A stretch of 46,069 nucleotides of DNA from a virus. Positions within the stretch are counted from its first letter, which is position 1. Each line of letters begins with the position of its first letter. Below the pieces are notes generated by a model, which saw nothing but the letters and a program-made list of their open reading frames with translations, had not been told where the DNA came from and ran no database searches. The translations under genes and the position numbers were made by a program. Below, piece after piece: positions 696 through 35,226 of the stretch. Location: the IMG/VR virus record IMGVR_UViG_3300035691_000010, positions 1 to 46,069 of that record. One strand, 5' to 3'.

Positions 696-944
696 TCACT
701 TCACCTTCTCGCCCCGCAGTTGCTGGAAGCGACGGACGAAGCATGTCGCGCTATGTGGCAGACCGCCGCAGTTGGAACAGCCGTCGCGCTGCGTGTAGTA
801 AGCGATGAACTCGTCGGCGATCACCGCGAGAGCTTCGTAATCGCTCAAGCCGACAAATTCGGAGACCTCAGATTCGCGTACCACGACACACTCGTAGCTG
901 CCTGGATCGATCAGCGCGCCCTTGAAAATCTGTGTGTTACTCAT
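696..944 (-). CDS. Small hypothetical protein, early operon
   Basis: 82 residues, with a CSNCGG motif near the C-terminus and a later Cys that may help bind a metal. I do not recognise the family. It starts 3 nt after the stop of the excisionase-like gene and ends 3 nt before the repeat-protein ATG, so the three genes form one leftward operon. A 17-bp direct repeat (703-719 and 955-971) brackets it, which gives this gene and the upstream gene the same C-terminal LRGEKV. Confidence 0.75.
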   Translation of the reverse strand: MSNTQIFKGALIDPGSYECVVVRESEVSEFVGLSDYEALAVIADEFIAYYTQRDGCSNCGGLPHSATCFVRRFQQLRGEKVK

Positions 945-947
945 GGT

Positions 948-1202
948 TCACCGGACCTTCTCGCCCCGCAGATAGGCGGCGACCTTCACGCCGCTCCACT
1001 TCTTCCGCTTCGACAACTGCGGTTTGAACTCGAGATCCTTGAAGCGACCGAGCTTGTTCAACTTGTAGAAGTAAGACCGGCTGACACGGAACGCCCGCAG
1101 CATGTCGGGCACGTTCATCACGGTTGGGAGATCGATCGGCTGGACCACTGGGGCGTCGGGAACGGTCGCGACCATCGGAGCGGCCACGTCTGTAGGACTC
1201 AT
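948..1202 (-). CDS. Excisionase/Cro-like DNA-binding protein
   Basis: 84 residues. After a Pro/Val-rich N-terminus, residues from about 33 resemble an excisionase or MerR-like winged helix: MLRAFRVSRSYFYKLNKLGR, then LSKRKKWSGVKVAAYLRGEK. It is divergent from the repressor gene and first in the leftward operon, as expected for a Cro or Xis regulator. A TTGACA-N17-TATATT promoter ends 8 nt before the ATG, so the transcript is probably leaderless; there is no Shine-Dalgarno. Whether it acts as Cro, Xis or both cannot be told. Confidence 0.7.
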   Translation of the reverse strand: MSPTDVAAPMVATVPDAPVVQPIDLPTVMNVPDMLRAFRVSRSYFYKLNKLGRFKDLEFKPQLSKRKKWSGVKVAAYLRGEKVR

Positions 1203-1210
1203 AGCGCAAG

Positions 1211-1239
1211 AATATAGGATTGACTGACACGAATGTCAA
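1211..1239 (-). promoter_or_regulatory. Leftward early promoter
   Basis: On the minus strand: TTGACA (1239-1234), a 17-bp spacer, TATATT (1216-1211), close to sigma-70 consensus. The predicted start of transcription is near 1204, essentially at the ATG of the gene starting at 1202, so the message would have almost no leader. Confidence 0.75.
1225..1238. promoter_or_regulatory. Candidate operator overlapping the -35 box
   Basis: Inverted repeat TGACA-CGAA-TGTCA, extended outward with one unpaired base (GACT and AAGTC arms). It overlaps the -35 box of the leftward promoter and lies between the divergent repressor and Cro/Xis-like genes. By analogy with lambdoid switches I infer binding by the repressor at 1321-1881. 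Confidence 0.6.
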
Positions 1240-1320
1240 GTCGAAAGTGTTGTTTTGGAGACGATTTCGCTATCGGACTCAGCGCAACGGACTTAGGGCT
1301 GATCTAGACTCGCCGCCACG

Positions 1321-1881
1321 ATGGATTGGATCGGTGTGCGCCGTCGTCTCAGTCAACTGCGACTTGCGCAACGCCGTGCGCGGGATGGGCGATCGTGGAG
1401 TCTCGATGATTTGGCGAAAGCGAGCGGGATTGATAAGTCCGCGATTCACCGGACCGAAAACACCAAGCGGTATCCGCACTACCGTCCAGATTTGGACACG
1501 ATCGAACGCTGGGTGAAGGCGACGACCGGCAAACATTTGTCTGCCTTTTTCGCGTCTTTCGAATCCGACTCGTCGGAGGTGACAAAAAATAGTATGTCTA
1601 GCATCAATTTGCCGTTGAATTCTGGCGACACTCCGTTACACAATCCGCCGTCGACGATCAACCACAACGCAGAGGCGGCGGCGCATGGTGCTCTCCTTCC
1701 CACGACGACCATTGCCCTCCTTGAAAGTGTCGTCCTCACCTCTGTCGAGCGGGTCGTCACCGCCCTTGACCGGCTTGGCGATCGACTGGCAACGCGTGAC
1801 GAACAAGTTGCAGGTCGTCGCCCTGAGACGCCCCATCATCGCCGGCGTGATCGTGTCCAGCATGGAAAAACTGCTCGATAA
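1321..1881 (+). CDS. XRE-family repressor (CI-like)
   Basis: 186 residues. The N-terminal helix-turn-helix (about residues 8-65) includes SLDDLAKASGIDKSAIHR and ends in DTIERWVKATTGK, typical of XRE/Cro-CI proteins. The middle is Asn/Ser/Pro-rich, followed by a helical segment from about residue 130; there is no S24 autoprotease motif, so SOS-type self-cleavage is not supported. It is divergent from the early operon and directly upstream of the integrase, so it is the likely lysogeny repressor. A TAGACT box lies 10 nt before the ATG with no Shine-Dalgarno. The last about 20 residues are His/Arg-rich and unlike folded protein. Confidence 0.75.
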   Translation: MDWIGVRRRLSQLRLAQRRARDGRSWSLDDLAKASGIDKSAIHRTENTKRYPHYRPDLDTIERWVKATTGKHLSAFFASFESDSSEVTKNSMSSINLPLNSGDTPLHNPPSTINHNAEAAAHGALLPTTTIALLESVVLTSVERVVTALDRLGDRLATRDEQVAGRRPETPHHRRRDRVQHGKTAR

Positions 1882-1890
1882 CCTCCTCCA

Positions 1891-3033
1891 GTGAGACGCG
1901 GCACTCGAGAGACGATCGAACGCGGCATCTACAAGGATGTCGGCGGCTATGAAGTGGTCGCTCGGGCCGGGACGTTGCGCCGAAGCCAACGATTCCCGTT
2001 GCGCACCAGCCTACAGACGTTGCGTGGCTGGCGCGACCTGACCACCTCAGACTTACGAGACGAGCGCCAGCCGACCGCCGATGCCTCCACGCTGGCCGGC
2101 GCGATCGACTCGTTCATCGCGAAGACCAAGCTGCCGAGACGTGCGGGAATTCGCCCGAGTCTCCACGCGTGGGCGCGCGAATACGGCGAGCGGCCGCGAC
2201 GGAAGATCACCGCGGCGCTCTGCCAGCAAGCGCTCGAACGCTGGCGCCATGCCGGCTACTCGCCGCAGTCGTTGTACTACCGGCGCTTGGCGCTCTATCG
2301 CCTCTGGAAAACACTGGATGGCCCGACTGTCAAGACGCCTGTTGATGACATTCACATCGCCCGCCCGCGCGTGCAGCGGCCGACGTGGGTGCCTGACGAC
2401 GTGATTCTCAGCGTACTGATGGAACTCCGGCGGAAGGAACTGGCGGGCGGGAAGCTGAGACGATCCGCGAAGACGCGCGCGCGGTTCCTGGTGCTCGCGA
2501 CGACGGGCCAACGGCCGGCGCAGCTCAAACGCGCGCAGCGGTCAGACGTGGATCTCGAGCGCGGCATCTGGTGGGTCCGGCCGGCGAAAGGCGGGCACGC
2601 CGTGCCGCTCCACCTCAACTCCGAAATGCTCGACGCGTGGAAGGCGTTCGTCGCCGCTGACGCGTGGAGCCACTACGATACGCGCAGCTTCGCCCGCACG
2701 CTCCGCGCCTGCGGTTGGCCGAAAGGGATCCGTCCCTACAATTTGAGGCACGCCGCCGGCTTGACACTCAGCGCGCGCGGGGCCGATCTCGGGGACATCC
2801 AGATGCACATGGGGCACACGTCGATCGCGACGACGCGGCAATTCTACGTGCCTGGGCTCGATGAACGGATGAAGGCGACGAGTGCCGCGCTGGAGGGACG
2901 ATTCCGCGACCGTGCCACGCACCCGGTGCCACGATCGGCAGGAGACACCATCAGATTTCCCGGGAACCAGCGGGTTGATTCGAAGCACATTCTTGTCGCG
3001 GCCGACAAGCCGCAGAAGCGACGCGGCGCCTAG
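1891..3033 (+). CDS. int: Tyrosine-family phage integrase
   Basis: 380 residues. The catalytic set is visible: Arg208 in TGQRPAQL, Lys233 in AKGGHAVPL, Arg286 in NLRHAAG (Asn in place of the first His), His309 in MGHTS and the nucleophile Tyr319 in QFYVP. Residues about 60-160 form the helical core-binding domain. It catalyses site-specific recombination between attP and the host attB. The GTG start overlaps an out-of-frame TGA and lacks a clear Shine-Dalgarno, so the exact start is uncertain. The attP core begins about 37 nt after its stop, the standard arrangement for tRNA-integrating phages. Confidence 0.93.
   Translation: MRRGTRETIERGIYKDVGGYEVVARAGTLRRSQRFPLRTSLQTLRGWRDLTTSDLRDERQPTADASTLAGAIDSFIAKTKLPRRAGIRPSLHAWAREYGERPRRKITAALCQQALERWRHAGYSPQSLYYRRLALYRLWKTLDGPTVKTPVDDIHIARPRVQRPTWVPDDVILSVLMELRRKELAGGKLRRSAKTRARFLVLATTGQRPAQLKRAQRSDVDLERGIWWVRPAKGGHAVPLHLNSEMLDAWKAFVAADAWSHYDTRSFARTLRACGWPKGIRPYNLRHAAGLTLSARGADLGDIQMHMGHTSIATTRQFYVPGLDERMKATSAALEGRFRDRATHPVPRSAGDTIRFPGNQRVDSKHILVAADKPQKRRGA
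2912..2937 (+). repeat. Left arm-type repeat pair, candidate integrase site
   Basis: GTGCCACG, 6 nt, then GTGCCACGATCG, inside the 3' end of the integrase gene. The same paired motif with a 5-nt gap is at 3142-3166 on the other side of the tRNA-like core. Direct repeats flanking the core are what arm-type integrase or excisionase sites look like. Confidence 0.55.
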
Positions 3034-3069
3034 AATCAACCACTTGCGACGTTGCGTGTGATCCGAGGA

Positions 3070-3121
3070 CACCTGATTCGTAATCAGCAGGTCATCGGTT
3101 CAAGTCCGATCGCCGGCTCCA
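3070..3121 (+). other. attP core: 3' half of a tRNA-Thr(CGT) gene
   Basis: It contains an anticodon loop TTCGTAA (anticodon CGT at 3079-3081) with a CTGA/TCAG stem, a variable loop, a T-arm ATCGG-TTCAAGT-CCGAT and an acceptor 3' strand CGCCGGC-T-CCA ending at 3121. The 5' acceptor strand and D-arm are absent, so it is not a complete tRNA. A 3' tRNA half just downstream of an integrase is the classic attP identity segment that restores the host tRNA after integration. Confidence 0.85.
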
Positions 3122-3141
3122 GAAAACGCGAGTTTCCAAGC

Positions 3142-3166
3142 GTGCCACGATCTGGTGCCACGATCG
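3142..3166 (+). repeat. Right arm-type repeat pair, candidate integrase site
   Basis: GTGCCACG, 5 nt, then GTGCCACGATCG, matching the pair at 2912-2937. With the core at 3070-3121 it gives a symmetric attP layout. The stretch 3122-3240 otherwise holds no gene that I can support. Confidence 0.55.
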
Positions 3167-3240
3167 AACAGGGTCAGGCGGCACCGCCCATCCCGATGTC
3201 GGGGCGACACCGGGTCCCAGTCGGCCCGCCTGAGCCCCGC

Positions 3241-3444
3241 TCAGCTCGCTGGACCGAGTCTCGCAATGGCCTCAGCTTCAAAGAGCCGCCACTCGGTGAG
3301 CAGTCCTGGACACGGCGCACCAGCCGCGCCGCAGTCATCGTGCTCCCACGGTTGATCCGGATGTGCCTCGCACACCCAGCCGTCGCGGCAGTCCGGACAT
3401 GAATGCACGACGTTCCACGGTGCGGTGTGATACTTCTCGGTCAT
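3241..3444 (-). CDS. Small Cys-rich zinc-binding-like protein
   Basis: 67 residues with CPDC, then GWVCEAHPDQPWEHDDCG and a final APCPG. The spacing of Cys and His suggests a zinc ribbon. I recall short bacterial and phage proteins with this WVCEAHPDxPWEHDxCG core; no function is established. The start at 3444 is chosen because the conserved region begins there; upstream codons are antisense to the moron at 3481. A 14-bp direct repeat (3229-3242 and 3445-3458) brackets the gene, one copy being its ribosome-binding region. Confidence 0.7.
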   Translation of the reverse strand: MTEKYHTAPWNVVHSCPDCRDGWVCEAHPDQPWEHDDCGAAGAPCPGLLTEWRLFEAEAIARLGPAS

Positions 3445-3462
3445 CCTGAGCCCCGCTCTACT

Positions 3463-3480
3463 CTGTGCTAGACTGCGCGC
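3463..3480 (+). promoter_or_regulatory. Extended -10 promoter of a leaderless gene; direct-repeat copy 1
   Basis: TGCTAGACT fits an extended -10 element (TGn plus TAGACT at 3469-3474). Transcription would start near 3481, the A of the ATG. The 17 bases at 3463-3479 recur exactly at 3748-3764, so the promoter brackets its gene. No -35 consensus is visible. Confidence 0.55.
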
Positions 3481-3744
3481 ATGAACAGGCGCGGATTCTT
3501 CGGCACACTCGCGGCGTGCCTCATTGTGAAGCGCGTGGCTCCCACCACTCCGCAGATCAACTTCCGCCTTGACGGCGCTGACTTGGTATCGCCGGAAGTC
3601 CGCACGATCATCGAAGGCAAGCCTGGCCACCGAATCTACTTCCTGTCGAACGACGGCCCATACGTCATCGGCGGTAGCCCGAACCACGTCGAGAAAATCT
3701 CACTCGACACTTTTGCCGCGCCTACCGTTCCACCTTCCCACTGA
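3481..3744 (+). CDS. Rightward moron with possible TAT-like signal
   Basis: 87 residues starting MNRRGFFGTLAACLIVKR: a twin-Arg, a Phe pair and a short hydrophobic stretch, resembling a TAT-type signal, though the hydrophobic part is short. The rest contains RTIIEGKPGHRIYFLSNDG and YVIGGS, small beta-rich segments. The family is not recognised. It runs opposite to its neighbours, has its own promoter and no Shine-Dalgarno, and is bracketed by a 17-bp direct repeat, which together mark an accessory insertion that could be expressed in the lysogen. Confidence 0.65.
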   Translation: MNRRGFFGTLAACLIVKRVAPTTPQINFRLDGADLVSPEVRTIIEGKPGHRIYFLSNDGPYVIGGSPNHVEKISLDTFAAPTVPPSH

Positions 3745-3747
3745 GCG

Positions 3748-3764
3748 CTGTGCTAGACTGCGCG
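3748..3764 (+). repeat. Direct-repeat copy 2 of the moron promoter
   Basis: Exact 17-bp copy of 3463-3479, placed 4 nt after the moron stop. Removing one repeat plus the moron would join the leftward small reading frame at 3805 to a TAG just ahead of the ribosome-binding region of the gene at 3444, so the insertion probably landed at the end of a small leftward gene. Confidence 0.7.
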
Positions 3765-3801
3765 TGCTGGCCGCGTCGCTGCGGAACAGACCGCAAGGCG
3801 C

Positions 3802-3882
3802 TCACGGGCTCGTGGTGGCTCCGCCGTTCGACTCGGTAGGGCGGCGCTTTCTGAAACCGACGCGGACAGCCTTCTTCCTCAC
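3802..3882 (-). CDS. Possible 26-residue basic peptide
   Basis: The GTG start overlaps the stop of the beta-helix gene (GTGA). The peptide is Arg/Lys-rich (MRKKAVRVGFRKRRP) and its stop in turn overlaps another GTG at 3805 that opens a 27-codon frame ending at 3722 inside the moron. The stop-start overlaps match the style of this genome, but length and composition are weak evidence. Confidence 0.35.
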   Translation of the reverse strand: MRKKAVRVGFRKRRPTESNGGATTSP

Positions 3883-5666
3883 CGACGAAAGCGGTGCTTG
3901 CCGCCAGCCGCCGAGATCGTGATGCCCGTGAGCGTGGTCGCCGTGGCGAGGAGCACCGCGCTGATGTTCGCCCCGATGTCGGCTCCGTCGGTCCCCGTGT
4001 TCTGGTAGGCGCTTCCGTTCGCAATGGCAAAGTTCGCCCCCACGCCATCGACGGCATACGTGGTGAACTGCGCTTCCCACGTTGCATCATCCGGATAGAA
4101 GTTGTTCGCGGGATACGAGCCTGACGAGACATTCGAGAGCGCGTTTTTCAGGAAGCTGTAGCCGGGTGCAGCCGCCGCAAGCCCCGCACTGCCTTGCCCG
4201 CCTGAGCAGATGATCCCGTAGGTTTCTCCGCGCACCAGATTGTTCGTGAAGACGAAGCCCGACAGGACCGCGACCTGATCATCGAGCTGCAACGCGCCCC
4301 CAGCGGTCCCCTGCGTCACATGCACGATGGTGTTGTGGTCAATCGTCGCGTTGACGACGCCTTCGGTCGCGACGATCGCGAAGACCTGACTCCCCTGTCG
4401 CCATGGATCGGTCCCCGAGTCGTACACGAGATTGTTCCGGACGGTGACATTCGTCAGCGGTCCAGGCCGGCCGCCGTTCTCGGCTTCAATCCCGTGCAGC
4501 TCGAGGAACCCGCAGCAGTGCCGAATGATGTTCTTCTCGAAGACGATGTTCTTGGTCTGGATGTAGGGGGCCGTCCCTTCTTGATCGACGGTTTTCAACC
4601 ACACCGCATAGCCCTGGTCGGCACCAGGCCAGCAGTATTCGAAGATGTTGGAGTCGATCTGTGCGTTGACGCAGGCTTTCAGCTCGAACAGATTCTTGAT
4701 CGCCCACGATTCATTGATCCAGGCCGGATCGTTCCGCACGTAGTTGTAGCGGAACGTCAGGCCGTCGAGAATACATCCCGCCTTGATCGTGTTCGTGCCG
4801 ACGTCTGGCGCGGCGCTCAGCGCGGTAAAGCCAATCGTGCCCGACGCGCCGTTCCCGCTCTTGCTCGTGAGCGTCGTCTGCTTCCACACCCCGCCCACCA
4901 GACACGCGATCGTCTGCCCGACGGCAATCTCGGCCAGCGCATGACTCGCCTCCGAACACGCCACCGTGGCTGATGTCGTCGTCGGACTGCCGGATACGGT
5001 CAGGTAGGTGCGGATATTCGGGTCTGCGCCACCGAGCAGGAAGGGTTCGGTGCCTGCGCTGAGGTAGTTGTTCGTGACCGTCAGTGGACCATGACCATTC
5101 CATCCCGCGATGCACTGACTGTCGCCTTCCCCGGCACCAGTCGACTTGATGTCTGAGATGTAGTTGTTCGTGATGACGATCCGCTTCCCCGCCGTGTGAA
5201 TCGCCCGCTTCTGCCCCAGCGTCGCGCTGCCGTGGATGTAACACTGGTCAATCGTGATGTCCGTGGGTTCAAGCGTCTCGAAGGCTTGCGACGAATCCGC
5301 GTACCCGATGGAGATAATTGTATTGATGCCGCCAGGTACCTCGGGACAGTGAATATGTCGGAACGTGTAGTGATTCGACCCAGTGGCGAACTGGACCGCT
5401 GGCGCCCCGCTTCCCGGCGATTGAATCGTCGGCATGAACGCCGCGTACGCCGGACTCGTTCGCTGTCCAGCCGTGGGAAGACTGAACGCGCTGGCATCCG
5501 ACGTGATAAGAATCCCGACGGTCATCACGCCCTTGTCTGGACACGTCACCGTCTCCGTGAAGGTCTGCCCTGCCTTGCAGACAATCGTGTCCCCGTCCAC
5601 CGCGGCATTGACCGCGGCTTGAACCGTGCTGTAGGTGTAGCCCGTGCCTACTGTCCGCGTCGCCAT
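3879..5666 (-). CDS. Parallel beta-helix tailspike-like protein
   Basis: 595 residues. The N-terminus (TYSTVQAAVNAAVDGDTIVC) and repeated short strands with Asn ladders (VITNNYISD, LTVTNNYLS, VTVRNNLVY, ATIDHNTIV, FVFTNNLVR) are typical of right-handed parallel beta-helices of the pectate-lyase or tailspike type. Such phage proteins bind or cleave surface polysaccharide. No catalytic residues can be assigned. It lies at the distal end of the structural and lysis operon, consistent with a receptor-binding or depolymerase role, but a host-modifying secreted enzyme is also possible. Confidence 0.75.
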   Translation of the reverse strand: MATRTVGTGYTYSTVQAAVNAAVDGDTIVCKAGQTFTETVTCPDKGVMTVGILITSDASAFSLPTAGQRTSPAYAAFMPTIQSPGSGAPAVQFATGSNHYTFRHIHCPEVPGGINTIISIGYADSSQAFETLEPTDITIDQCYIHGSATLGQKRAIHTAGKRIVITNNYISDIKSTGAGEGDSQCIAGWNGHGPLTVTNNYLSAGTEPFLLGGADPNIRTYLTVSGSPTTTSATVACSEASHALAEIAVGQTIACLVGGVWKQTTLTSKSGNGASGTIGFTALSAAPDVGTNTIKAGCILDGLTFRYNYVRNDPAWINESWAIKNLFELKACVNAQIDSNIFEYCWPGADQGYAVWLKTVDQEGTAPYIQTKNIVFEKNIIRHCCGFLELHGIEAENGGRPGPLTNVTVRNNLVYDSGTDPWRQGSQVFAIVATEGVVNATIDHNTIVHVTQGTAGGALQLDDQVAVLSGFVFTNNLVRGETYGIICSGGQGSAGLAAAAPGYSFLKNALSNVSSGSYPANNFYPDDATWEAQFTTYAVDGVGANFAIANGSAYQNTGTDGADIGANISAVLLATATTLTGITISAAGGKHRFRR

Positions 5667-5674
5667 CGCCCTAC

Positions 5675-5821: not shown

Positions 5822-5858
5822 ATCCTTTTCTGCCTCAACTAACCAACCAGACGACGGC

Positions 5859-7756: not shown

Positions 7757-7902
7757 TCAAGGCGTCGGTGCGGCGTGGAGAGAACACGCTAAGGACAACG
7801 CGAGATCCAGCGCGTAATCGTGGTCATTGACCGTTGTCTGAGCCGGTCGCGCACCCGGCGAACTGCAGCCGCCAAGCGCGGTCACCGACGCCCCCAACCT
7901 GC
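7757..7902 (-). pseudogene. 3' remnant of a leftward gene split by the moron at 7919
   Basis: Leftward frame FYSRLGASVTALGGC, continuing to a TGA at 7757 that leads straight into the GAGGAG of the next gene. The FYxRLGA segment is encoded by the direct repeat and matches, in the same phase, GWRRFYRRLGA at the end of the 5' remnant (8226-8421). Removing the moron plus one repeat makes one continuous frame. Confidence 0.45.
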
Positions 7903-7910
7903 TGTAGAAT
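7885..7910 (+). promoter_or_regulatory. Moron promoter; direct-repeat copy 1
   Basis: The TAGAAT at 7905-7910 stands 8 nt before the ATG at 7919, so transcription would start at the start codon. The 26 bases recur at 8222-8247 with 3 mismatches. There is no -35 consensus. Confidence 0.5.
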
Positions 7911-7918: not shown

Positions 7919-8212
7919 ATGACGCTGAAAGAAGCGCGCGCACTTCGCGACTACATCCACTCGAAGAACAGCATCAACTGCACCGTGCCGCTCGGTCACG
8001 GTCCTGACGGCTACTTCCCGCGGTCGGACATGGGCGCCGCTGGCCCACGCGACTGGAAGTCGAAGCAGGAGTTTCGCGATTGGCACGCGCAATATCTTCG
8101 TCGGCAGCGCAAGATCATGCGCGAATACCACGCGATGCTGGCGCGGCAGTCGATGCGCCGCGCTCGCAGCCCTATCGAGCTGATGGTCGATCGAGCCTGC
8201 GGGCTGATCTAA
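7919..8212 (+). CDS. Rightward moron, small basic protein
   Basis: 97 residues: MTLKEARALRDYIHSKNS, then an aromatic/Gly segment, then a helical Arg-rich part (YLRRQRKIMREYHAMLARQS). Family not recognised. It is opposite to its neighbours, has a -10-like box 8 nt upstream and no Shine-Dalgarno, and is bracketed by a 26-bp direct repeat. It appears to interrupt a leftward gene. An in-frame start 99 nt upstream exists but would include non-protein-like sequence and the promoter. Confidence 0.7.
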   Translation: MTLKEARALRDYIHSKNSINCTVPLGHGPDGYFPRSDMGAAGPRDWKSKQEFRDWHAQYLRRQRKIMREYHAMLARQSMRRARSPIELMVDRACGLI

Positions 8213-8221: not shown

Positions 8222-8247
8222 CCGCCGCCCCCAACCTGCGATAGAAT
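8222..8247 (+). repeat. Direct-repeat copy 2 bracketing the moron
   Basis: Matches 7885-7910 at 23 of 26 positions, including CGCCCCCAACCTGC and TAGAAT. No rightward start codon follows closely, so as a promoter it would have no gene; on the minus strand it encodes RFYRRLGA of the split gene. Confidence 0.7.
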
Positions 8248-8421
8248 CGGCGCCAACCCGGTTCGATGGTGCATGCCGAATAGCCGAATAAGGCATGACG
8301 TAGCACTTCTTTGGTGCGCGATTCCAGGGCATCCATCGAGCCGGTGAACCATTTTCGTGAGGCCACGAAAATGAACGCGAGTTTCCATTCTTTCCAGTCA
8401 TCACACTACCGGTAGCCTCAC
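8226..8421 (-). pseudogene. 5' remnant of a leftward gene after the holin
   Basis: GGAGGAG (8436-8430) stands 8 nt before a GTG at 8421, which opens only 6 codons to a TGA at 8401. One base later, in the +1 frame, a protein-like stretch runs DWKEWKLAFIFVASRKW and on to EPGWRRFYRRLGA at the direct repeat, where the sequence matches the 3' remnant at 7902. I read this as a small operon gene damaged by a frameshift and by insertion of the moron. Programmed +1 frameshifting at TGA or a sequencing error cannot be excluded. A 10-bp perfect hairpin lies at 8350-8373 within it. Confidence 0.4.
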
Positions 8422-8438
8422 GCGCGCTTCTCCTCCGC

Positions 8439-8732
8439 TCACCGACTATCTCCCTGGATCGATCCGCCAATACCGCCTTGTCGCGCGTGATTGGTGCGGC
8501 CAAAATAGAACCCGACCACGAGAAAGAACGCATTCGAGAGCAGTAAGAACGCCGCTGTTTGCCCCTGATCCTTCAACGCGAGTTGCGCGGCCACATACAA
8601 CGTCGACCCTGTCACGGCCAGCGCAATCACGGCCTGCGTCACTTCCCAAATGACATTGATCCGCCGCTGCCCTGCGGTTTTGCGATCCTGCTCGCTCGTC
8701 GTCGTGGACGCGATCACGTCGAGATCGGTCAC
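8439..8732 (-). CDS. Holin-like two-TM protein
   Basis: 97 residues: a polar N-terminus, then two hydrophobic helices (about 30-52 and 58-78) joined by QLALKDQGQ, then a charged tail GFYFGRTNH. Size, topology and the GTGA overlap with the endolysin stop make it the best holin candidate. It would permeabilise the inner membrane so that the endolysin gains access to the wall. Confidence 0.75.
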   Translation of the reverse strand: MTDLDVIASTTTSEQDRKTAGQRRINVIWEVTQAVIALAVTGSTLYVAAQLALKDQGQTAAFLLLSNAFFLVVGFYFGRTNHARQGGIGGSIQGDSR

Positions 8733-9148
8733 GCCTTTTTGCCTTCCTCGACCGGATGGAGCTCCAGTTCCGCGTGCGGTTGATCGAAGAACTTGTACCG
8801 GCCGCCCCACGTCAGCCCGCGCTGCTCAAGGGCTTGTCCGAACCGTTCCCACGGATGCGTCTGCGCGAAGGGGTTGCCATCGACAAACGCACAATCCACG
8901 GCGTACCCGTAGCCGTCCTCATGCGGCTGATGGTGGCTCTTGTGCGTCACGCCGTCTTTGTAGGTCACAATCGGTCCCTTCGTGGTCCGACCTTGCGCGT
9001 AGAGCGCCACTTGCCGCTCTTGCGTGCGGACGCCTTCAACCACGAACATCGGGTGTCCCCACTCCGACATTTCCTGGAACACGTCGACGATCGCTTCCAC
9101 CAGCGCCGGATGAACCCCCGTGAGCCGCGCATAATCCCGGTCGGTCAT
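8729..9148 (-). CDS. Endolysin, M15-type peptidoglycan peptidase
   Basis: 139 residues. The VanY/M15 core is visible: SHHQPHEDGYGYAVD (zinc ligand His in 72-76, Asp85) and His125 in QPHAELE, with VVEGVRTQERQVALYAQGRT upstream as in L-Ala-D-Glu or D-Ala-D-Ala peptidases. It cleaves cross-link or stem peptides in the murein. The ATG at 9148 overlaps the previous stop (ATGA). It is followed by the holin gene, giving a lysis cassette. Confidence 0.88.
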   Translation of the reverse strand: MTDRDYARLTGVHPALVEAIVDVFQEMSEWGHPMFVVEGVRTQERQVALYAQGRTTKGPIVTYKDGVTHKSHHQPHEDGYGYAVDCAFVDGNPFAQTHPWERFGQALEQRGLTWGGRYKFFDQPHAELELHPVEEGKKA

Positions 9149-9381
9149 CGCGCAGCCTTCTGCGCTTGGAGCACCTGATCGATCTTCTGTTCCACCAGGG
9201 AAATCCGTTTGTCGAGTGCGGCATATGCCAGTACCACGCTGACCACGACGGTCAACACCGACAACGACAACTGAAACCAGACGGGCCACTTGTCTCCAGA
9301 CCGTTGATGCCGGTATTCAGCACGGTCCTCGTCCATCGCCCGACGTACCGCGTCGCGTACCGTGTCATACGTCCCCACCAT
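9145..9381 (-). CDS. One-TM coiled-coil protein of the lysis cassette
   Basis: 78 residues from ATG 9381 (a GTG at 9411 would add 10). A charged N-terminal helix, one TM segment (QLSLSVLTVVVSVVLAYAAL) and a C-terminal coiled coil (SLVEQKIDQVLQAQ). Position before the endolysin suggests an antiholin, spanin-like or holin-associated role; none is proven. The start at 9381 follows GCAGG; the longer form is possible. Confidence 0.65.
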   Translation of the reverse strand: MVGTYDTVRDAVRRAMDEDRAEYRHQRSGDKWPVWFQLSLSVLTVVVSVVLAYAALDKRISLVEQKIDQVLQAQKAAR

Positions 9382-9413
9382 GTCGGCCCTGCGCCTTTCC
9401 TTCGTGTCCACCG

Positions 9414-9438
9414 TTTTTCCGTGCAGGGAACGGAAAAA
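9414..9438. repeat. Perfect inverted repeat (9-bp arms) between divergent genes
   Basis: TTTTTCCGT, a 7-nt loop, ACGGAAAAA. There is no T-run beyond the stem on either strand, so it is not a standard intrinsic terminator. It lies between the leftward lysis gene and the rightward lipoprotein gene and could be an operator or an mRNA end structure. The stretch 9439-9566 shows no other gene. Confidence 0.5.
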
Positions 9439-9566
9439 TCCTGGTCTACAGTCTGCGTAGCCGGATACCCTTCAGCCCTGCGTTGAAGGGGTTCGGTTAG
9501 AGGTGCCGCGTATGCCTGTCCGCTGCGCGGCGCCTCGCTTCGGTTCCGTCCGTTTAGGAGGTTGTG

Positions 9567-14136: not shown

Positions 14137-14142
14137 GAAGCC

Positions 14143-23764: not shown

Positions 23765-24682
23765 TTATGCTCCCGGATTGCCGTAGTTGTTACGCCAATC
23801 CACCGAGTCCCAGCACATGCGCGCACGCAGCTTGTACAGCCGGTTGCCCGTGCGGGGATCGGTCATCGGCGGCGGCTGGTAGATCGCCTTCCGCTCCAGA
23901 TACAAGAGGCCGTTGGCCATCTTGTCCTTCGGCACCAGGAACCACGCATCGGTGTCCGTCAGGAACGGGTTGACCTTGATGGTGATGTCGAGATCGGAAA
24001 TCGGGTTGATCGAGTGGTTCGCCGACTCCGGATCCATCACCGACTTGACGATGCGCGCGGCGTTGAACCGATTGGCCGGCGCGACCAACAGGTAGAACCC
24101 GGTCGCAGGTGCCACGAGTTGGCCCGACTCAATCTTGGTGTCCGTGTCCAGGTCGATGAACGCCTGCGCCAGTGACGTGACCGAGAGGTCCGCTGCGCTG
24201 GACGCGGTGTTCTTCGCGGTGCCGCCGCGCTTTAGGGTGTGCGCGGTGGAGTAGAGCGCCACGCCATCGGCTGTGGTCTGCGTGCTGAAGCCGTTGTTGA
24301 AGATCGCCGCGGCCTGTTTCTCGGCCACCTGGCCCATCGAGAACGTGAGGAACTTGCCGTGCTGGGACAGGATGTTTTCGAGATCGTCCTCTTCTGCGGT
24401 CTCGGTGATCTCGGCCATCAGCCCCCACTCGAGCGGCGTCACGTCTTTCGTGTTCGCCTGCTGAATGAGGTCCGTGGCGTACTCTTCGCCTTCCGGCTTC
24501 TGCGGCACGTCGCCGTAGGGCGCCACGGTGACGATGCGCTCGAACTTCTTGCCGGTCGTCTGCTTCTTGAACAGCTGCGGGTAGATCGATTTCAGCTCGC
24601 TGACGTTCTTGTCCAGGAGCGCCGTCATCAGCTTGTCGACGTTGTCGATATTGGCTGGGATTTGAGATCGAAGCTGGGCCAT
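23765..24682 (-). CDS. Major capsid protein
   Basis: 305 residues. Helical start DNVDKLMTALLDKNVSELKS, then YGDVPQKPEGEEYATDLIQQ, a loop GVALYSTAHTLKRGG and a C-terminal DTDAWFLVPKDKMANGLLYL, QPPPMTDPRTGN. These are features of the Mu gpT-like branch of HK97-fold head proteins. It follows a scaffold-like gene, a promoter and a leader in the order expected for the most abundant virion protein. Confidence 0.82.
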   Translation of the reverse strand: MAQLRSQIPANIDNVDKLMTALLDKNVSELKSIYPQLFKKQTTGKKFERIVTVAPYGDVPQKPEGEEYATDLIQQANTKDVTPLEWGLMAEITETAEEDDLENILSQHGKFLTFSMGQVAEKQAAAIFNNGFSTQTTADGVALYSTAHTLKRGGTAKNTASSAADLSVTSLAQAFIDLDTDTKIESGQLVAPATGFYLLVAPANRFNAARIVKSVMDPESANHSINPISDLDITIKVNPFLTDTDAWFLVPKDKMANGLLYLERKAIYQPPPMTDPRTGNRLYKLRARMCWDSVDWRNNYGNPGA

Positions 24683-28741: not shown

Positions 28742-30766
28742 CTATCCGACGTTGGGGGCACCGAGACTCGTCAGCGCGCCTCCACCGCCCATGTGCGCCA
28801 GAATCGCGGCGAGTGCTGGATTCATCGGTGGCTGACCCATTGGCATTCCAGGCGGTTCCGTGGGCGCTCCAGGCTGCAACTGCGGACTCGCGGCAGCGGG
28901 CATTTGTGGCGCCTGTAAGGCACCAAGGAACGGCTGTCGATCCCGAATGTTGTACGACCGCAGCAGTTGTTCCAGAATGGCCTTCCCGACCTCTTGGCTC
29001 ATCAGGAGCGGCTGCAGTGCAGGGACCGCCTGCGCCAGTTTGGTGATCGCGAGGAAGAACCCATCGGAATCCTGCCGCTGCTTCAGCGTGTCGGCGGTCT
29101 CATCCGACCCGTAGGGCTCGAACTGGAAGTCTCCGCGCAACATGTCGAGCGTGAACTCTCCATTGAAGTCCGGGACGCGCGCTTGAACCATCTGCTGTAC
29201 CGACGCTGGCGCCGCCATCGGCTTGCCTTCCGCTTCCAAGGTCTCCAACCAGATGGCATGGGTCAGCTTCATGACCCGCGCCAGGGCGAGATGGAGATGG
29301 CCGATGACTTCATCGACCCGCACCGCCGACCCGCCGGCCACGAGTCGATTCTCACCCAGCGTGCGTCGTTCGCTCGAGAGCACGCCCACGGCTGAATCGG
29401 ACATCCCGCGGACGCGTTCGTTCGCATTCGCCAGGGCGTGCTCCTGCTCCACAATCGAGACCGGCACGTCCGCCACCTCCATCTGCTTCAATTCGTTGTG
29501 GTCACGGACCGTGATGACGCGACCGACGCCAAACGGTTGCGCTTGCGCGTCCCACAGCCCGCCCGCAATCTGCTGAATCGGGGCGTTCGTGGCGAGGGCT
29601 CCCCGATCGGCCTTCATGTTCCGCAGCGAGGTGTGTTCCTCGGCCAACGTCATGATCTTGTTGAACGTAAAGGAGTAGCCGTACACCGAATCACGCCGCG
29701 GGAACAGGATGAATGGCACACACCGCGGCATGCCAACTTTCTGGACGAACGTGTCGAGCTTCAACCGGAGGAGCACGCGCTGCCGACACGACACCGTTGC
29801 CAAGTACCACTCTTCGCGGCCATCCCCGTCTAGATCGCGCTTCAGCGTGACCTGCCAGAGTTCTTTCTCGACGGCGTCGCCTTCCTGTGACGCCACGGTG
29901 TCAACGGTTGTTGGAGCAGGGGCGTTCTCCCGGTCGCTATTGTCGCCCAGCAATTCGACGGCATCCTTGTCGTAGATACCGTCTTTCGCCTTTTCGCGAA
30001 TCTCCGGCATCCGCGGCCAGAACCGATAGGCGTAGCCGTAGGTCTGCTTCTGACTCTTGGCGTGCCCTGGCAAGAACACAAAGTCTTTCAGCGAGATGGC
30101 GTCGTACTGCGGGCCGAGCCGCTTAGCTTTCGTCGTCGTCTGCTCAACCGTGGCTTTCGGCTGGCCTTCCTGCGCCTTCATCGGCTCGCCGGTTGCCGGA
30201 TCGACCTGGAACTTCGGCTGCCCGTCTGGCCCAAGGATCGGGCCGCCGGTGTCCGGGTGGAGTTCCAACGCCAAGTCCATCTGTTCGGTGCGCTTCATCG
30301 TCTCGACGCGCTCCGACACTTCCAGGATGTAGCCGTCTTCGATCAGCGCCCCGTGAATGGTCTTGCACAGCTCCGTCTTGCACTCGGATTCCGGCTTGCG
30401 CACCTGCCAGTCCAGGAAGCCTTCGACGTACGGCGCTTTCTTCGCGTCGGCGCCCCAGCCTTCGACGAAGGCGAATGGCCGCACGCCGAAGATGGCTTTC
30501 ATCAGGCGCGAGCGCATCGCGTCGACGTCTTCGGTGACGTAGTAGGACGTGAGATCCGCCGCGCCGGGAAATGGTAGATCGTCGGCTGGGGTGCGTCCCT
30601 GTTCGTAGAACCAGTCGGCGTAGTCGATCAGCCCGCCGTCGGCGATGACGGATTGGCGGGCGTTGAGGGCGTTTTCGATGTCTCGGATGAGATCGTCTTG
30701 GAACACCTTCCGTTCCTGCTCGTCCATCTGGACATCGAACGCCTTGGGCTTCTTGGACTTAGCCAC
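28742..30766 (-). CDS. Portal protein (podovirus type)
   Basis: 674 residues. Residues 50-130 (DWFYEQGRTPADDLPFPGAA, MRSRLMKAIFGVRPFAFVEG) and later WYLATVSCRQRVLLRLKLD, RCVPFILFPRRDSVYGYSFT and SSERRTLGENRLVAG match the head-to-tail connector family of podoviruses. The C-terminus is Pro/Gly/Met-rich. It forms the dodecameric ring at the unique vertex through which DNA is packaged. It follows the terminase block. Confidence 0.85.
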   Translation of the reverse strand: MAKSKKPKAFDVQMDEQERKVFQDDLIRDIENALNARQSVIADGGLIDYADWFYEQGRTPADDLPFPGAADLTSYYVTEDVDAMRSRLMKAIFGVRPFAFVEGWGADAKKAPYVEGFLDWQVRKPESECKTELCKTIHGALIEDGYILEVSERVETMKRTEQMDLALELHPDTGGPILGPDGQPKFQVDPATGEPMKAQEGQPKATVEQTTTKAKRLGPQYDAISLKDFVFLPGHAKSQKQTYGYAYRFWPRMPEIREKAKDGIYDKDAVELLGDNSDRENAPAPTTVDTVASQEGDAVEKELWQVTLKRDLDGDGREEWYLATVSCRQRVLLRLKLDTFVQKVGMPRCVPFILFPRRDSVYGYSFTFNKIMTLAEEHTSLRNMKADRGALATNAPIQQIAGGLWDAQAQPFGVGRVITVRDHNELKQMEVADVPVSIVEQEHALANANERVRGMSDSAVGVLSSERRTLGENRLVAGGSAVRVDEVIGHLHLALARVMKLTHAIWLETLEAEGKPMAAPASVQQMVQARVPDFNGEFTLDMLRGDFQFEPYGSDETADTLKQRQDSDGFFLAITKLAQAVPALQPLLMSQEVGKAILEQLLRSYNIRDRQPFLGALQAPQMPAAASPQLQPGAPTEPPGMPMGQPPMNPALAAILAHMGGGGALTSLGAPNVG

Positions 30767-31215: not shown

Positions 31216-31217
31216 GG

Positions 31218-31430: not shown

Positions 31431-31433
31431 GGC

Positions 31434-31763
31434 CTACGGTGTCGGCGGAGCCGGGTTCAGTGCTGCCAAGATGCTGTCGGCCTTCGCGTCGAGATCGTCA
31501 AGCTGTGCCTGACTGACTGGCGATCCCGCCGCGATCTGTGCCTGCAACTCGGCAATCTTGGCGATCTGCTCAGCGGCGGTCGCCTTCACCGAGTCCACTG
31601 CCGTCTTGATTGCATCCAGTTCGTCGGAGAGTTCCTGTACCGTCGCCATAATTTTGCCTCCCTGAAAGATGAGCATGGTGAGTTTCTCAAGTACGGTATC
31701 GAGTTTCGGATCTGAGACCGGCACGCCGTGATGGTAAACGTCGATGCGAACACCATCACTCAC
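31434..31763 (-). CDS. Coiled-coil protein with two possible in-frame starts
   Basis: From the GTG at 31763 (GTGA overlap with the upstream stop) the product is 109 residues; from ATG 31649, which has a strong GGGAGG 7 nt upstream, 71 residues. The first part (VRIDVYHHGVPVSDPKLDTV) looks real, and the second part is a long heptad coiled coil (VQELSDELDAIKTAVDSVKA, AEQIAKIAELQAQIA). Two isoforms are likely. The function is unknown. Confidence 0.6.
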   Translation of the reverse strand: MSDGVRIDVYHHGVPVSDPKLDTVLEKLTMLIFQGGKIMATVQELSDELDAIKTAVDSVKATAAEQIAKIAELQAQIAAGSPVSQAQLDDLDAKADSILAALNPAPPTP

Positions 31764-32164
31764 GGCTTCGCCTCTGTGCTGAGCTGAATCCGCTCGAATC
31801 GTCGTTCCCCGCGTTCCGGACACTTCCGCAGCATCTCCAGCAACGACTGTTCGTACCGCGTGTCGAAGAGAATCGCGCGGTCGATGGTGAAGCTGATCGT
31901 CTGAGTGTTCCAGTCGAAGACATCCACGAAGCCGACGTGGAGTGTCTTGACAGGCTCAGCAACCTTCTGCCGCTCGCTGAACTCAATCCGATCATCGAGA
32001 CCGAGAGGCGGAGGCACCCAGCTCTTACGGAGCGGTGGATTCTCTAGAGTAGTCGCGTCACGCAAGCGCTCTGCTGCCGCCTTCAACCGAGCAGCGACCG
32101 TGAACGGCGGTACGGCCACTGTTGGCGGCTTGTGGACAGCGATGCCTTTCGTGCGCTTCGCCAT
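31760..32164 (-). CDS. Hypothetical protein after terminase
   Basis: 134 residues: basic start, a helix RLKAAAERLRDATTLE, then WVPPPLGLDDRIEFSERQ and a strand-rich part (VKTLHVGFVDVFDWNTQTIS). TGATG overlap with the large terminase. Role unknown. Confidence 0.65.
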   Translation of the reverse strand: MAKRTKGIAVHKPPTVAVPPFTVAARLKAAAERLRDATTLENPPLRKSWVPPPLGLDDRIEFSERQKVAEPVKTLHVGFVDVFDWNTQTISFTIDRAILFDTRYEQSLLEMLRKCPERGERRFERIQLSTEAKP

Positions 32165-33714
32165 CAGTAGCCGCCTCTCCGCCCCGATCGCGCGAACCGT
32201 CGTCCCCCGCCCAACTGAATCCGATCGTCCGGATCATGATCGATCTGCGCCCGCTTCAAGATCTCGCGCTCAATCTTCTGCTCGTCCTTCTGCGTCGGCA
32301 GCACTGGCCCGAAGTTCGCAATCAGGTACTCGCAGTCGTTCTGACAGTGGTCGTAATAGCCATCTTTCTTCGGGACTTGGATCGGCTTCCCACCAGCTGT
32401 CCGAACCACGCGATCGTCCCAGACGTAGCCAGCTTCGAACCCATCCGGCCCAAAGGCGTCTGTTCGTGCCTGGTCCTGCCCGATGACGCGCCAGTGCGTT
32501 TGGTCGATCTGGAAGGCTTCCCCGCCCTTGATGGCCCGTCTCCGCATGTAGGACGCGAGCGTTTGGATTGCCACGCTCCGAATCTCAGGCGTGTTGCTGG
32601 TGCTCACCGACCGCGGCGCGTAGCCGAGGAGTTCTTGGAGGGCCTTGACGCCTGTCACCGAACTGCCGAGGCTGTTCTTGTTCGCGCCAGCCGGATCGCA
32701 GCATGCCTGAATGTCGTACGGCGTCCCAAACCACTGTGCTCGCTGCTGAATGACCAACGGCACGAAGTCTTCGAGGAAAATGTCTTCGCCCATGATGCCG
32801 CCCAGAATATGCAGCGCGCCCCACGGCGTGAACTGCGCCCAGGTCACACACGGCCGGCTGGTCCCAAAGTCCCACGCTTCGTAGAGCGGCAGCGCGGGAT
32901 TCATCGTCAGCGGAACACAGTGGCGCTTGGCGTCGTAGTAGCCGCCGTAGACCGCTTTGCCCGTCACCGAGAGTCCGCGCTTGCCTTCGATGAAACGGCG
33001 CCGTAACGCGCTGCCTTCCGGGTACTTAGCCTCCAACGACTCGATGTAGCCAGCAGGGAGATTCTGCCGGTTGTCATAAACCGAGGTCCAGATGTAATGG
33101 TGGTGTGGGTGTCCATCGAGTTCGGGGAACCACGACGCATCGGCGAGCCAATGCCCGTGACCTGGTGGATTGGGGGTGAACCACGCCTCAAGCGGATAGC
33201 CCACCTGAGACAGTCGACCAGGCACATAAGCCTCGACCACATCGCGCTCAGCCTCCTCCGGCTGGTCGATCCACAACACCGCGAGGGTTAACCCGGCCAG
33301 CTTGCCGTAGCGCATCGTCTCTTCGCTGGCCTTGAGCGCACGGAGATAGATGCGCGACCCGTAGGGCTGAACTTCGTCGTATTCCTCGTCCGGATGCCAC
33401 TTCAGCGACAGCCCCATCTTGGCGGCCGTATCTCGCCACAGCGGCTTGACTTGCGCGTCCAATCCGTCTTGTGTCCACCGCGTCGCCGCCATGTGGATGC
33501 CGGGATGTTCGACGGCGTAGGTTCCGAGCTTCGCAGCCGGCGCCGTGGACTTCCCAGCTCGGATCGCGCCCTCTAGGTCGATGTACTCGATTGCGCCACC
33601 GACGACGGCCCGAATCAGAAGGAACTTCGATTGCGGTTTGTTCCAAAAGAAGTCCACGACCCGCGGCTTGGTCGCAGGCATCAGCAGCGAGAGCGCGAGG
33701 AGAAGGACATTCAC
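32164..33714 (-). CDS. terL: Terminase large subunit
   Basis: 516 residues. Walker A GAIRAGKST (49-57), Walker B LAVLWIDQPEE with Asp150 and Glu153, and nuclease acidic residues Asp282 (AWDFGTS), Asp340 (CCDPAGA) and Asp455 (YYDHCQND). It is the ATP-driven packaging motor and headful or site-specific nuclease. The GTG start overlaps the small-terminase stop. The first 18 residues (MNVLLLALSLLMPATKPR) look out of place, so an internal Met12 may be the true start. Confidence 0.88.
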   Translation of the reverse strand: MNVLLLALSLLMPATKPRVVDFFWNKPQSKFLLIRAVVGGAIEYIDLEGAIRAGKSTAPAAKLGTYAVEHPGIHMAATRWTQDGLDAQVKPLWRDTAAKMGLSLKWHPDEEYDEVQPYGSRIYLRALKASEETMRYGKLAGLTLAVLWIDQPEEAERDVVEAYVPGRLSQVGYPLEAWFTPNPPGHGHWLADASWFPELDGHPHHHYIWTSVYDNRQNLPAGYIESLEAKYPEGSALRRRFIEGKRGLSVTGKAVYGGYYDAKRHCVPLTMNPALPLYEAWDFGTSRPCVTWAQFTPWGALHILGGIMGEDIFLEDFVPLVIQQRAQWFGTPYDIQACCDPAGANKNSLGSSVTGVKALQELLGYAPRSVSTSNTPEIRSVAIQTLASYMRRRAIKGGEAFQIDQTHWRVIGQDQARTDAFGPDGFEAGYVWDDRVVRTAGGKPIQVPKKDGYYDHCQNDCEYLIANFGPVLPTQKDEQKIEREILKRAQIDHDPDDRIQLGGGRRFARSGRRGGY

Positions 33715-33989
33715 GCGGCGTAATTGTGGTTGATCTGGACGGGCCCACCGTCAGCGCCGGTCACTTCCAGCCGCTCGGTGGGCTTGCCCCACAGGTACGG
33801 CGCGATGATAGCCAGTGCCTTGATGCGAACGTGCGGATCGTCGTGCGGAGCCGTGGCGAGGGTATGCAGCTGCGCGGCGTAGTCCCGTCCATCCGGCCCG
33901 CCTAGCTTCGCGAACAGGTCACGCGCTTCCTTGCCGCGCTTGTTCGGCGTGCCAGCGGTTCTACCGCCTGTCTTCCACCCCTTCGCCAT
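33711..33989 (-). CDS. Terminase small subunit-like protein
   Basis: 92 residues: MAKGWKTGGRTAGTPNKRGK, a basic start seen in small-terminase-like phage proteins, then a helical part (HVRIKALAIIAPYLWGKPTE) and RLEVTGADGGPVQ. It directly precedes and overlaps the large terminase, which supports a DNA-recognition subunit role. Confidence 0.7.
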   Translation of the reverse strand: MAKGWKTGGRTAGTPNKRGKEARDLFAKLGGPDGRDYAAQLHTLATAPHDDPHVRIKALAIIAPYLWGKPTERLEVTGADGGPVQINHNYAA

Positions 33990-34036
33990 CTATTTCCGTC
34001 TACTTTCGACGGGTTGATGGTTGGATTACAAGAGGC

Positions 34037-34309
34037 TCAGCCTTGCTTGCAAGGTGGGGGTGTGAATTTCTTTTGGCGGGCGGCGTGACTGGCGAGGTAA
34101 GCGATCTGGCGGCGACGTTCAGCGGACAGGTTGTGCGCTCGAGTAAGACCGCCTAAGCGTCCCCTGGCCTGCACAGAGGACACGGTCCGGTGGAGTTCGT
34201 CCAAGCGATCAGCGGCTTCTTGGCAGGTCCAAGCGAGGGTATCGCGGTGCTGAGCGAGCGCGGCAGTCGCGAGGTGACGGAGCCTCAAGATGAGGTCTGG
34301 GGTCGTCAT
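34037..34309 (-). CDS. Small hypothetical protein
   Basis: 90 residues; helices LILRLRHLATAALAQ and TCQEAADRLDELHRTVSSV, then GLTRAHNLSAERRRQIAYLA, an AHNLSxERRxxIA motif found in many phage and plasmid small proteins. TGATG overlap with the gene upstream. Possibly DNA-binding. Confidence 0.65.
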   Translation of the reverse strand: MTTPDLILRLRHLATAALAQHRDTLAWTCQEAADRLDELHRTVSSVQARGRLGGLTRAHNLSAERRRQIAYLASHAARQKKFTPPPCKQG

Positions 34310-34545
34310 CACGTCTCCTGCTCGGGCTGCGGGGCAGGAACTCGTTGAGCCTGTTTGATTTCTCGTTCTTCGTAGGCGTGAACGAAATGCTTTAAGCACG
34401 TGATCGAGCACGCGACGTAGTAGGCGCCGCGATCCTCGATGCTGAACCAACCGTTCGGCATGTCGCCGTCGTACTCTGGCTCAAACTGCTGGACCTTCAA
34501 ACATTCGCCGCACGTCCACGGCACCATCTCTCGCTTCTCAGGCAT
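34309..34545 (-). CDS. Small Cys-containing protein
   Basis: 78 residues: TCGECLKVQQ, then CSITCLKHFVHAYEE: four Cys as two CxxxC/CxxC-like pairs, a possible zinc ribbon. GAGGAG precedes the ATG. The 15-bp translation-start sequence (34543-34557) is repeated at the start of the DUF1643-like gene. Confidence 0.7.
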   Translation of the reverse strand: MPEKREMVPWTCGECLKVQQFEPEYDGDMPNGWFSIEDRGAYYVACSITCLKHFVHAYEEREIKQAQRVPAPQPEQET

Positions 34546-34562
34546 CTCGGCTACTCCTCGAG

Positions 34563-35186
34563 CTATGGTCTCGTCCAAGGAATGGGCTTCCTGTCGTCGG
34601 GGATTCGCATTTTGCCGCGCGCCATCGGATGCAGCGGTTGCCATGCGTTGTTGACGCCGAGGCAATAGAACTGTTCGTCCGCATCCGCGCGATCGGCAGG
34701 CTGGCCGAATGCCTCTAGGCATTGCTCCAACCACACCTCGTCGTGGTAGACGGGCGCCGCGCCGAATGCAACAAATCGAATGACTGCGGCACGCGCAGCC
34801 GCTTCAATGTCTCCGAGATTAGCCTGCAGATCGTCGCGCACGTCCCATGCCGGCCCGTGCGCTTGCCAATTCGCCCAACGCCACATCGCGGCAGGCTGAC
34901 TCGCTATGAACGGATAGAGGTTGACGCCGATCCAGCCATCGCAACCAGCTGCTTTCGTGAAGTGCGTCACGCGGAGCGCCGTTGGGTCGTTGCGATCCTT
35001 TGCCGCGAGGCTTGGATTCAACATCAGCCACGCCGCCCAGCGCTGAGGATTCTTCACCCACCAGCGGCGAATCTCGTTCCTCAGCGTGCCATCGCGGGCG
35101 AAGCGCGCACTGCCTTTGAGCAGCGGCGGATCCCAGTCCAACCCGCTCAGTTCCTCATTGATCGACGTGAGATCGACTTGGTCCAT
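34563..35186 (-). CDS. DUF1643-family protein
   Basis: 207 residues. WAAWLMLNPSLAAKDRNDPT and GWIGVNLYPFIASQP, then VYHDEVWLEQC and a C-terminal CLGVNNAWQPLHPMA are hallmarks of DUF1643 (LMLNPSxADxxxxDPT). The biochemical role is unknown. GGAG 8 nt upstream defines the ATG at 35186; the longer frame is unlike protein. It is bracketed by a 15-bp direct repeat. Confidence 0.8.
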   Translation of the reverse strand: MDQVDLTSINEELSGLDWDPPLLKGSARFARDGTLRNEIRRWWVKNPQRWAAWLMLNPSLAAKDRNDPTALRVTHFTKAAGCDGWIGVNLYPFIASQPAAMWRWANWQAHGPAWDVRDDLQANLGDIEAAARAAVIRFVAFGAAPVYHDEVWLEQCLEAFGQPADRADADEQFYCLGVNNAWQPLHPMARGKMRIPDDRKPIPWTRP

Positions 35187-35226
35187 CTCGGCTACTCCGT
35201 CGGATCGGGAGGGGCGGCCACGTCCT

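Follow-up and report, generated by a model that had tools for sequence, protein, structure and literature searches.

Single small genes between short, slot-specific edge sequences in a temperate tailed phage and its relative

Whether mosaicism in phage genomes arises by homologous recombination at boundaries or by random joining followed by selection has been debated for decades (PMC3233612, PMC3945230). In the boundary-sequence (linker) model of lambdoid mosaicism (Susskind and Botstein 1978; Clark et al. 2001 for HK620), as outlined in the passages of PMC3233612 that cite it, short conserved boundaries act as crossover sites, a long-standing idea for which lambdoid phages provide some evidence. 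In cluster K mycobacteriophages, the SAS and ESAS elements are conserved DNA located just 5′ of the starts of small genes, often with different families downstream (PMC3203893). In Escherichia coli phages, about 30% of recent mosaics had remnants of homology at their flanks; Rad52-like phage recombinases, an Erf included, act on short homology, and ~30 bp is taken as the minimum for Red-beta (PMC3945230). Here, we analyze a 46,069-base virus record of IMG/VR (IMGVR_UViG_3300035691_000010; hereafter, the window), in which single genes are bracketed by short direct repeats.

The window belongs to a temperate tailed soil phage. A search with its portal protein revealed a relative, IMG/VR contig 3300044983_000133 (47,739 bp; hereafter, G1). 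G1 is probably complete since the same sequence of roughly 127 bases occurs at both of its ends. The DNA identity between the two phages in blast alignments is 67–88% across the common structural and integration genes (the capsid proteins are 90% identical and the portal proteins 72%). Comparison of the two genomes makes exchange or insertion of individual genes, driven by homology between short edges, the likely explanation for the layout described below.

Repeat-bracketed genes and their state in the relative

The initial annotation listed five genes flanked by direct repeats that differ from cassette to cassette. Each pair is indeed present, and the repeat families are mostly pairs specific to one cassette. 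The cassettes, their edges, and one reciprocal site are as follows (identities with coordinates refer to G1).

703-719, minus strand: edge repeat 1, downstream copy; C-terminal codons RGEKV, with the Shine-Dalgarno region that precedes the start at 692
696-944, minus strand: cassette 1 gene, 82 amino acids, no family match
955-971, minus strand: edge repeat 1, upstream copy (17/17 identical); codes the C-terminal LRGEKV of the 948-1202 product
3229-3242: edge repeat 2, left copy, CCTGAGCCCCGCTC
3242-3444, minus strand: cassette 2, a small Cys/His-rich ("zinc") open reading frame (ORF)
3445-3458: edge repeat 2, right copy (14/14 identical), directly 5′ of the zinc gene ATG
3463-3479, plus strand: edge repeat 3, copy 1, with the -10-like TGTGCTAGACT just 5′ of the ATG at 3481
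3481-3744, plus strand: cassette 3 gene, 87 amino acids
3722-3747: 3′ edge of slot 3, 26 bp, 96% identical to 14494-14519
3748-3764, plus strand: edge repeat 3, copy 2 (17/17 identical), promoter-like, after the gene
7885-7910, plus strand: edge repeat 4, copy 1, with -10-like TAGAAT
7919-8212, plus strand: cassette 4 gene, 97 amino acids
8222-8247, plus strand: edge repeat 4, copy 2, 88% identical to copy 1 (23/26, with a 14-bp exact core)
34529-34557: slot edge with repeat 5, copy 1 (34543-34557), GGAGTAGCCGAGATG on the minus strand; 97% to 46831-46859
34563-35186, minus strand: cassette 5 gene, DUF1643, 207 amino acids
35184-35221: slot edge with repeat 5, copy 2 (35184-35198; 15/15 identical); 97% to 47091-47128
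41779-41810, minus strand: edge that brackets an insert in G1, single-copy in the window; both outer flanks match G1

The repeats were also said to fall at gene starts, and this is borne out: pairs 1, 2, and 5 lie at stop/Shine-Dalgarno/start junctions, while pairs 3 and 4 include a -10-like TAGACT or TAGAAT shortly 5′ of an ATG. The pair 1 repeat additionally codes the C-terminal tail LRGEKV common to two adjacent proteins. No informative family besides DUF1643 was found for the cassette genes.

To estimate how often such repeats arise by chance, we counted exact direct repeats of at least 14 bp located 100 to 1000 bp apart, excluding the low-complexity first 250 bases. The window contains nine, compared to a mean of 0.43 in dinucleotide shuffles (maximum of 2 in 60 runs) and 0.48 in gene-wise codon shuffles (maximum of 3). 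Six of the nine bracket a single called ORF, i.e., both copies are no more than 30 nt from its two ends; when the same pairs were placed at random, the mean was 0.19, and none of 5000 trials reached six. The bracketing pairs are the five listed above and 38241/38464 around the ORF at 38261-38491; the other three all lie within the gene at 36244-37092. Among the control loci, L002, L009, and L014 contained no such repeats, L015 contained one, and L003 contained two. Shuffled controls, at ~0.45 repeats on average, thus do not yield equal numbers of brackets.

G1 shows gain, loss, or replacement of a gene between the repeats at all five sites. The empty site that the initial annotation proposed to look for was found for the zinc gene. 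In G1, CCTGAGCCCCGCTC is single-copy (14219-14232 region) with the left and right flanks of the window on either side, and window segments 960-3242 and 3437-3477 map to the overlapping G1 segments 11949-14232 and 14211-14251; the zinc cassette is a 216-bp insert with a clean empty site in G1. The reciprocal situation also occurs: in G1, two copies of CCGTCTCCGCGATCTCGT (18 bp; 5370 and 5693) enclose a 323-bp insert that contains a 74–amino acid ORF, and the corresponding edge at 41779-41810 is the single-copy one in the window. Empty sites are thus present in each direction.

Different genes between the same repeats, likewise anticipated, were observed for the genes at 696, 3481, and 34563. 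The place of cassette 1 is taken in G1 by an unrelated 109–amino acid gene (11607-11936) between the same edges: the island at 685-717 is 94% identical to G1 11596-11628, and the repeat copy at 955-971 is the edge of the block 960-3242 shared with G1 at 88%. The cassette 1 protein and its replacement both end in RGEKVK because the edge codes the tail. Copy 1 of repeat 3 is conserved in G1, where the same -10-like element precedes an unrelated 68–amino acid gene (14259-14465); the 3′ edge of this slot is mostly coding in the window and noncoding in G1. The counterpart of cassette 5 is an unrelated 75–amino acid gene (46866-47093) between the same CATCTCGGCTACTCC repeats. The cassette 4 gene is absent from G1 (no tblastn match); its left edge is single-copy there, with the island at 7867-7902 matching G1 19762-19798 at 92%.

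The -10-like TAGACT/TAGAAT elements occur at 1305, 3469, 7905, and 8242, ~6 to 20 nt 5′ of an ATG. Judged from sequence, this spacing suggests leaderless or near-leaderless transcripts in the phage and its host. No gene was called on the same strand downstream of the second promoter-like copies (8222-8440 and 3748-3878), which may point to a small RNA or to a gene that has been lost. A search of the window against Rfam gave no match, and hence no RNA was recognized behind these copies.

The right arm and its genomic setting

The initial annotation overlooked a wider pattern: ~20 more edges are located in the right arm, some of them inside genes. Between 34.0 and 41.8 kb of the window, 22 islands are collinear with G1. 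Most are 26 to 60 bp long, and two are 137 to 143 bp; most are >90% identical, the weakest being 76%. No tblastx similarity was detected at E 1e-3 in 18 of the 21 inter-island slots, and slot lengths vary freely between the phages (626 versus 231 bp, for example). A start codon is contained or touched by 12 of 21 islands, compared to 2.7 expected under random placement. Edges in this region other than those listed above and those inside the two long ORFs, together with the sixth repeat-bracketed gene, are the following.

33943-34009: first and weakest island, 76% to G1 46325-46390
34306-34350: slot edge, 89% to G1 46650-46694
35416-35456: slot edge (Shine-Dalgarno and start), 95% to G1 47435-47475
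35609-35663: slot edge (Shine-Dalgarno and start), 89% to G1 69-124
38261-38491, minus strand: sixth gene enclosed by a repeat pair (38241/38464), not present in G1
38703-38745: slot edge, 43/43 identical to G1 2582-2624
39446-39471: slot edge, 96% to G1 3135-3160
40095-40127: slot edge, 97% to G1 3705-3737
40282-40315: slot edge, 97% to G1 4040-4073
40501-40643, minus strand: long edge of 143 bp with a 44–amino acid ORF, 96.5% to G1 4435-4577
40832-40968: long edge, 88% to G1 4781-4911
41228-41264: slot edge, 97% to G1 5099-5135

The 40501-40643 edge is near-identical although the adjacent slots have nothing in common between the phages.

Six islands are intragenic. They lie in two long ORFs (36244-37092 and 37333-38268), with the same frame in both phages. 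Together with two islands at the ends of these two genes, they make up eight coding islands.

36247-36287, minus strand: edge at the shared C-terminus LLALPLGGER of a modular gene, 98% to G1 845-886
36406-36443, minus strand: intragenic edge (ATEGALRQVVER), 97% to G1 993-1030; fourfold sites 9/9
36760-36806, minus strand: intragenic edge (ERLRALHASTE), 91% to G1 1413-1459; fourfold sites 8/8
36913-36941, minus strand: intragenic edge (ASDSPVLDL), 100% to G1 1548-1576
37741-37768, minus strand: intragenic edge (ALRAAPGA), 100% to G1 1888-1915
37870-37899, minus strand: intragenic edge (AAPASPPLEE), 93% to G1 2011-2040
38017-38050, minus strand: intragenic edge (SGDAIQAAPA), 91% to G1 2236-2269
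38213-38268, minus strand: edge at the start of the modular gene 37333-38268, 86% to G1 2384-2436

The protein stretches between the intragenic islands gave no tblastx match between the window and G1. Fourfold-degenerate sites are identical at 63 of 66 positions in the eight coding islands, compared to 452 of 767 over six genes that the phages have in common and 21 of 42 in an arm gene from within a slot, a contrast that is biased upward since the islands were picked by similarity. Therefore, protein constraint does not explain the coding islands. The two long ORFs look modular in each phage (552-1598 and 1591-2457 in G1): linkers HASTE/ATEGA, AAPASPPLEE, and ALRAAPGA are shared in the same order and frame, and apparently unrelated modules of 30 to 60 residues lie between them. 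Linker DNA is also repeated inside the window modular gene (at 36426, 36564, and 36753).

Other features of the window are as follows.

1-240: low-complexity GGC-rich tract that reaches the record end and codes a tail rich in Ala, Asp, and Tyr in the protein that starts at 692
1891-3033: tyrosine integrase, matching PHROG phage integrases; the sole integrase found
3070-3122, plus strand: probable attP core adjoining the integrase, the 3′ part of a tRNA whose anticodon reads CGT (Thr), matching Acidobacteria tRNA genes
23765-24682: capsid
28742-30727: portal, weak PHROG match
31760-31810: edge downstream of the terminase slot, 84% to G1 44470-44520
43382-44164, minus strand: ERF-family single-strand annealing protein, candidate recombinase (Pfam ERF 8.9e-23; PHROG Erf-like 2.2e-38)

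The large terminases (32164-33714 in the window and 44765-46057 in G1) are unrelated over most of their length; the G1 protein matches Terminase_6N, while that of the window has no Pfam family match. The terminase slot is flanked by weaker edges (76–84%). A 49-base stretch within 3070-3122 occurs exactly in three Acidobacteria genomes, and the host is therefore most likely a member of Acidobacteriota.

Searches for further relatives covered known phages, IMG/VR, and Acidobacteria genomes. Known phages gave no DNA match in a near search of the window or a distant search of the arm, and no match to the portal or cassette 4 proteins. The cassette 4 edge used as a DNA pattern had no match in IMG/VR; one right-arm edge used in the same way, as well as integrase and arm-gene profiles, matched G1 alone. 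A terminase search led to L002, a 39% relative to which the edges are not common, and the match of a third contig, L011, is limited to the structural region. No edge-sharing relative was found with capsid, integrase, and arm DNA in 193 Acidobacteria genomes of one class, or with capsid in 396 genomes of the phylum; arm DNA gave single weak matches in the Acidobacteria genome search (best 5.2e-7).

Mechanism and alternative explanations

According to the homology-driven explanation, parts of the phage, above all the right arm, would form an ordered row of slots, usually with one small gene per slot, divided by short slot-specific edges that are usually a stop/Shine-Dalgarno/start junction or a -10 element. 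Integration at a single edge, by a donor gene with the edge at its flanks or by a circle with one edge, would leave two copies. Crossing over between two edge copies would delete the gene, and crossing over at two neighboring edges would swap it. Edges would thus serve as crossover sites, and annealing recombination, such as by ERF proteins, probably drives the exchange; at 14 to 45 bp, the edges are close to the homology lengths on which annealing recombinases act. Which way each gene was gained or lost is something that we infer.

Several observations weigh against this explanation. A third phage with these arms was not found in the searches, so the pattern rests on two genomes. No ERF protein was recognized in G1, where a PHROG 6706 protein, with function unassigned, occupies the corresponding place (8826-9551); the recombinase is therefore unproved, and we infer the enzyme step. 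G1 lacks the second copy of repeat 3. The right flank of cassette 4 aligns weakly to G1 (2% of shuffles equal it), and therefore the absence of cassette 4 is clear while the exact joint in G1 is not. Many edges carry translation or promoter signals, and selection could keep part of them. Last, because similarity was the criterion for selecting islands, their identity values are biased upward; the switch between near-identical edges and unrelated content is independent of this bias.

Selection on such signals is central to an alternative in which breakpoints of illegitimate recombination are random, the survivors are those that spare a ribosome-binding site, promoter, or start, and edges are kept as regulatory sequences. 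The random-breakpoint view has been published as a leading model (PMC3233612), and it accounts for the start codons at 12 of 21 islands and the promoter-like pairs 3 and 4. It does not account for six intragenic islands with nearly no synonymous change or for the 3′ edge of slot 3, which is coding in one phage and noncoding in the other. Many islands of 28 to 45 bp are 95–100% identical, well beyond a Shine-Dalgarno sequence, and neither duplicated edges around extra genes nor clean empty sites are expected. We thus consider random breakpoints with selection an unlikely source of the pattern.

The initial annotation proposed, next to exchange or insertion by boundary homology, an insertion that duplicates its target. 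If each cassette were one insertion of a small, as yet undescribed mobile element that duplicates its target site, this would produce clean single-copy empty sites such as those of the zinc gene and the G1 insert. However, repeat lengths are not fixed (14, 15, 17, and 18 bp exact; 26 bp imperfect), and the inserts hold small ORFs with no transposase matches and no common ends by eye in the two inserts compared. The same repeats of pair 5 persist around different genes in the two phages, most slots are swapped rather than empty in one phage and filled in the other, and most edges are shared between the phages rather than duplicated within one. For these reasons, boundary homology is the better-fitting part of the earlier proposal, and target duplication is very improbable.

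A further alternative, that a small gene or junction was duplicated in tandem and diverged fast so that the bracketed gene is a former copy of its neighbor, agrees with the tails shared by neighboring proteins (LRGEKV in the window and EIAET in G1) but deserves hardly any credence, since the shared part ends at the edge and the contents of 18 of 21 slots are not diverged copies between the phages at the tblastx level. Integron gene cassettes were also considered and rejected: the repeats are cassette-specific and, as read from the sequence, lack an attC-type GTTRRRY core, and instead of IntI the sole integrase found matches PHROG phage integrases and adjoins the tRNA-type attP.

A bolder reading is one that we put forward tentatively and with less than even confidence. 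The accessory region could be a standing array of interchangeable slots whose slot-specific edges are kept for recombination itself, extending into genes so that modules of ~30 to 60 residues swap between short in-frame edges without synonymous drift.

Comparison with known systems

As in the boundary-sequence model, short conserved sequences at gene boundaries enclose different genes in related phages (22 islands; 18 of 21 slots). What sets this locus apart from the model, as far as the passages citing it describe it, is a run of ~20 consecutive single-small-gene slots, the presence of an edge copy on each side of extra genes, and intragenic edges. The window edges resemble SAS in sitting at start codons (12 of 21 islands versus 2.7 expected); however, a single SAS consensus recurs many times within a genome, while each edge described here belongs to one slot and is found at that slot in both phages.

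Morons are single accessory genes with their own promoter. Cassettes 3 and 4, opposite-strand small genes with their own apparent -10-like TAGACT/TAGAAT before the ATG, may be similar; unlike in morons, insertion edges are visible here as an empty or replaced site in the relative. The PeSL promoter/stem-loop modules of T4-type phages, said to go back to Arbiol in 2010 and Comeau in 2014, are regulatory intergenic sequences reportedly proposed for gene shuffling. In contrast to these, most edges here are slot-specific Shine-Dalgarno junctions.

Relaxed homologous recombination by Rad52-like proteins in temperate phages offers, by analogy, a plausible machinery, since annealing recombinases act on short, diverged homology (PMC3945230). 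Whereas homology flanked about 30% of the recent E. coli phage mosaics (PMC3945230), nearly every arm gene here lies between conserved edges. The density of ~20 slots, the occurrence of slot-specific edges in two copies around additional genes, matched by empty sites in each direction, and the intragenic edges appear to be new. With ~20 adjacent slots, measured edges, and reciprocal empty sites, the two phages provide an unusually clear layout for testing how mosaicism arises, and regulatory selection is an unlikely reason for the edges that lie inside genes. If the pattern is general, edges would make it simple to locate accessory genes open to exchange in uncultured phages.

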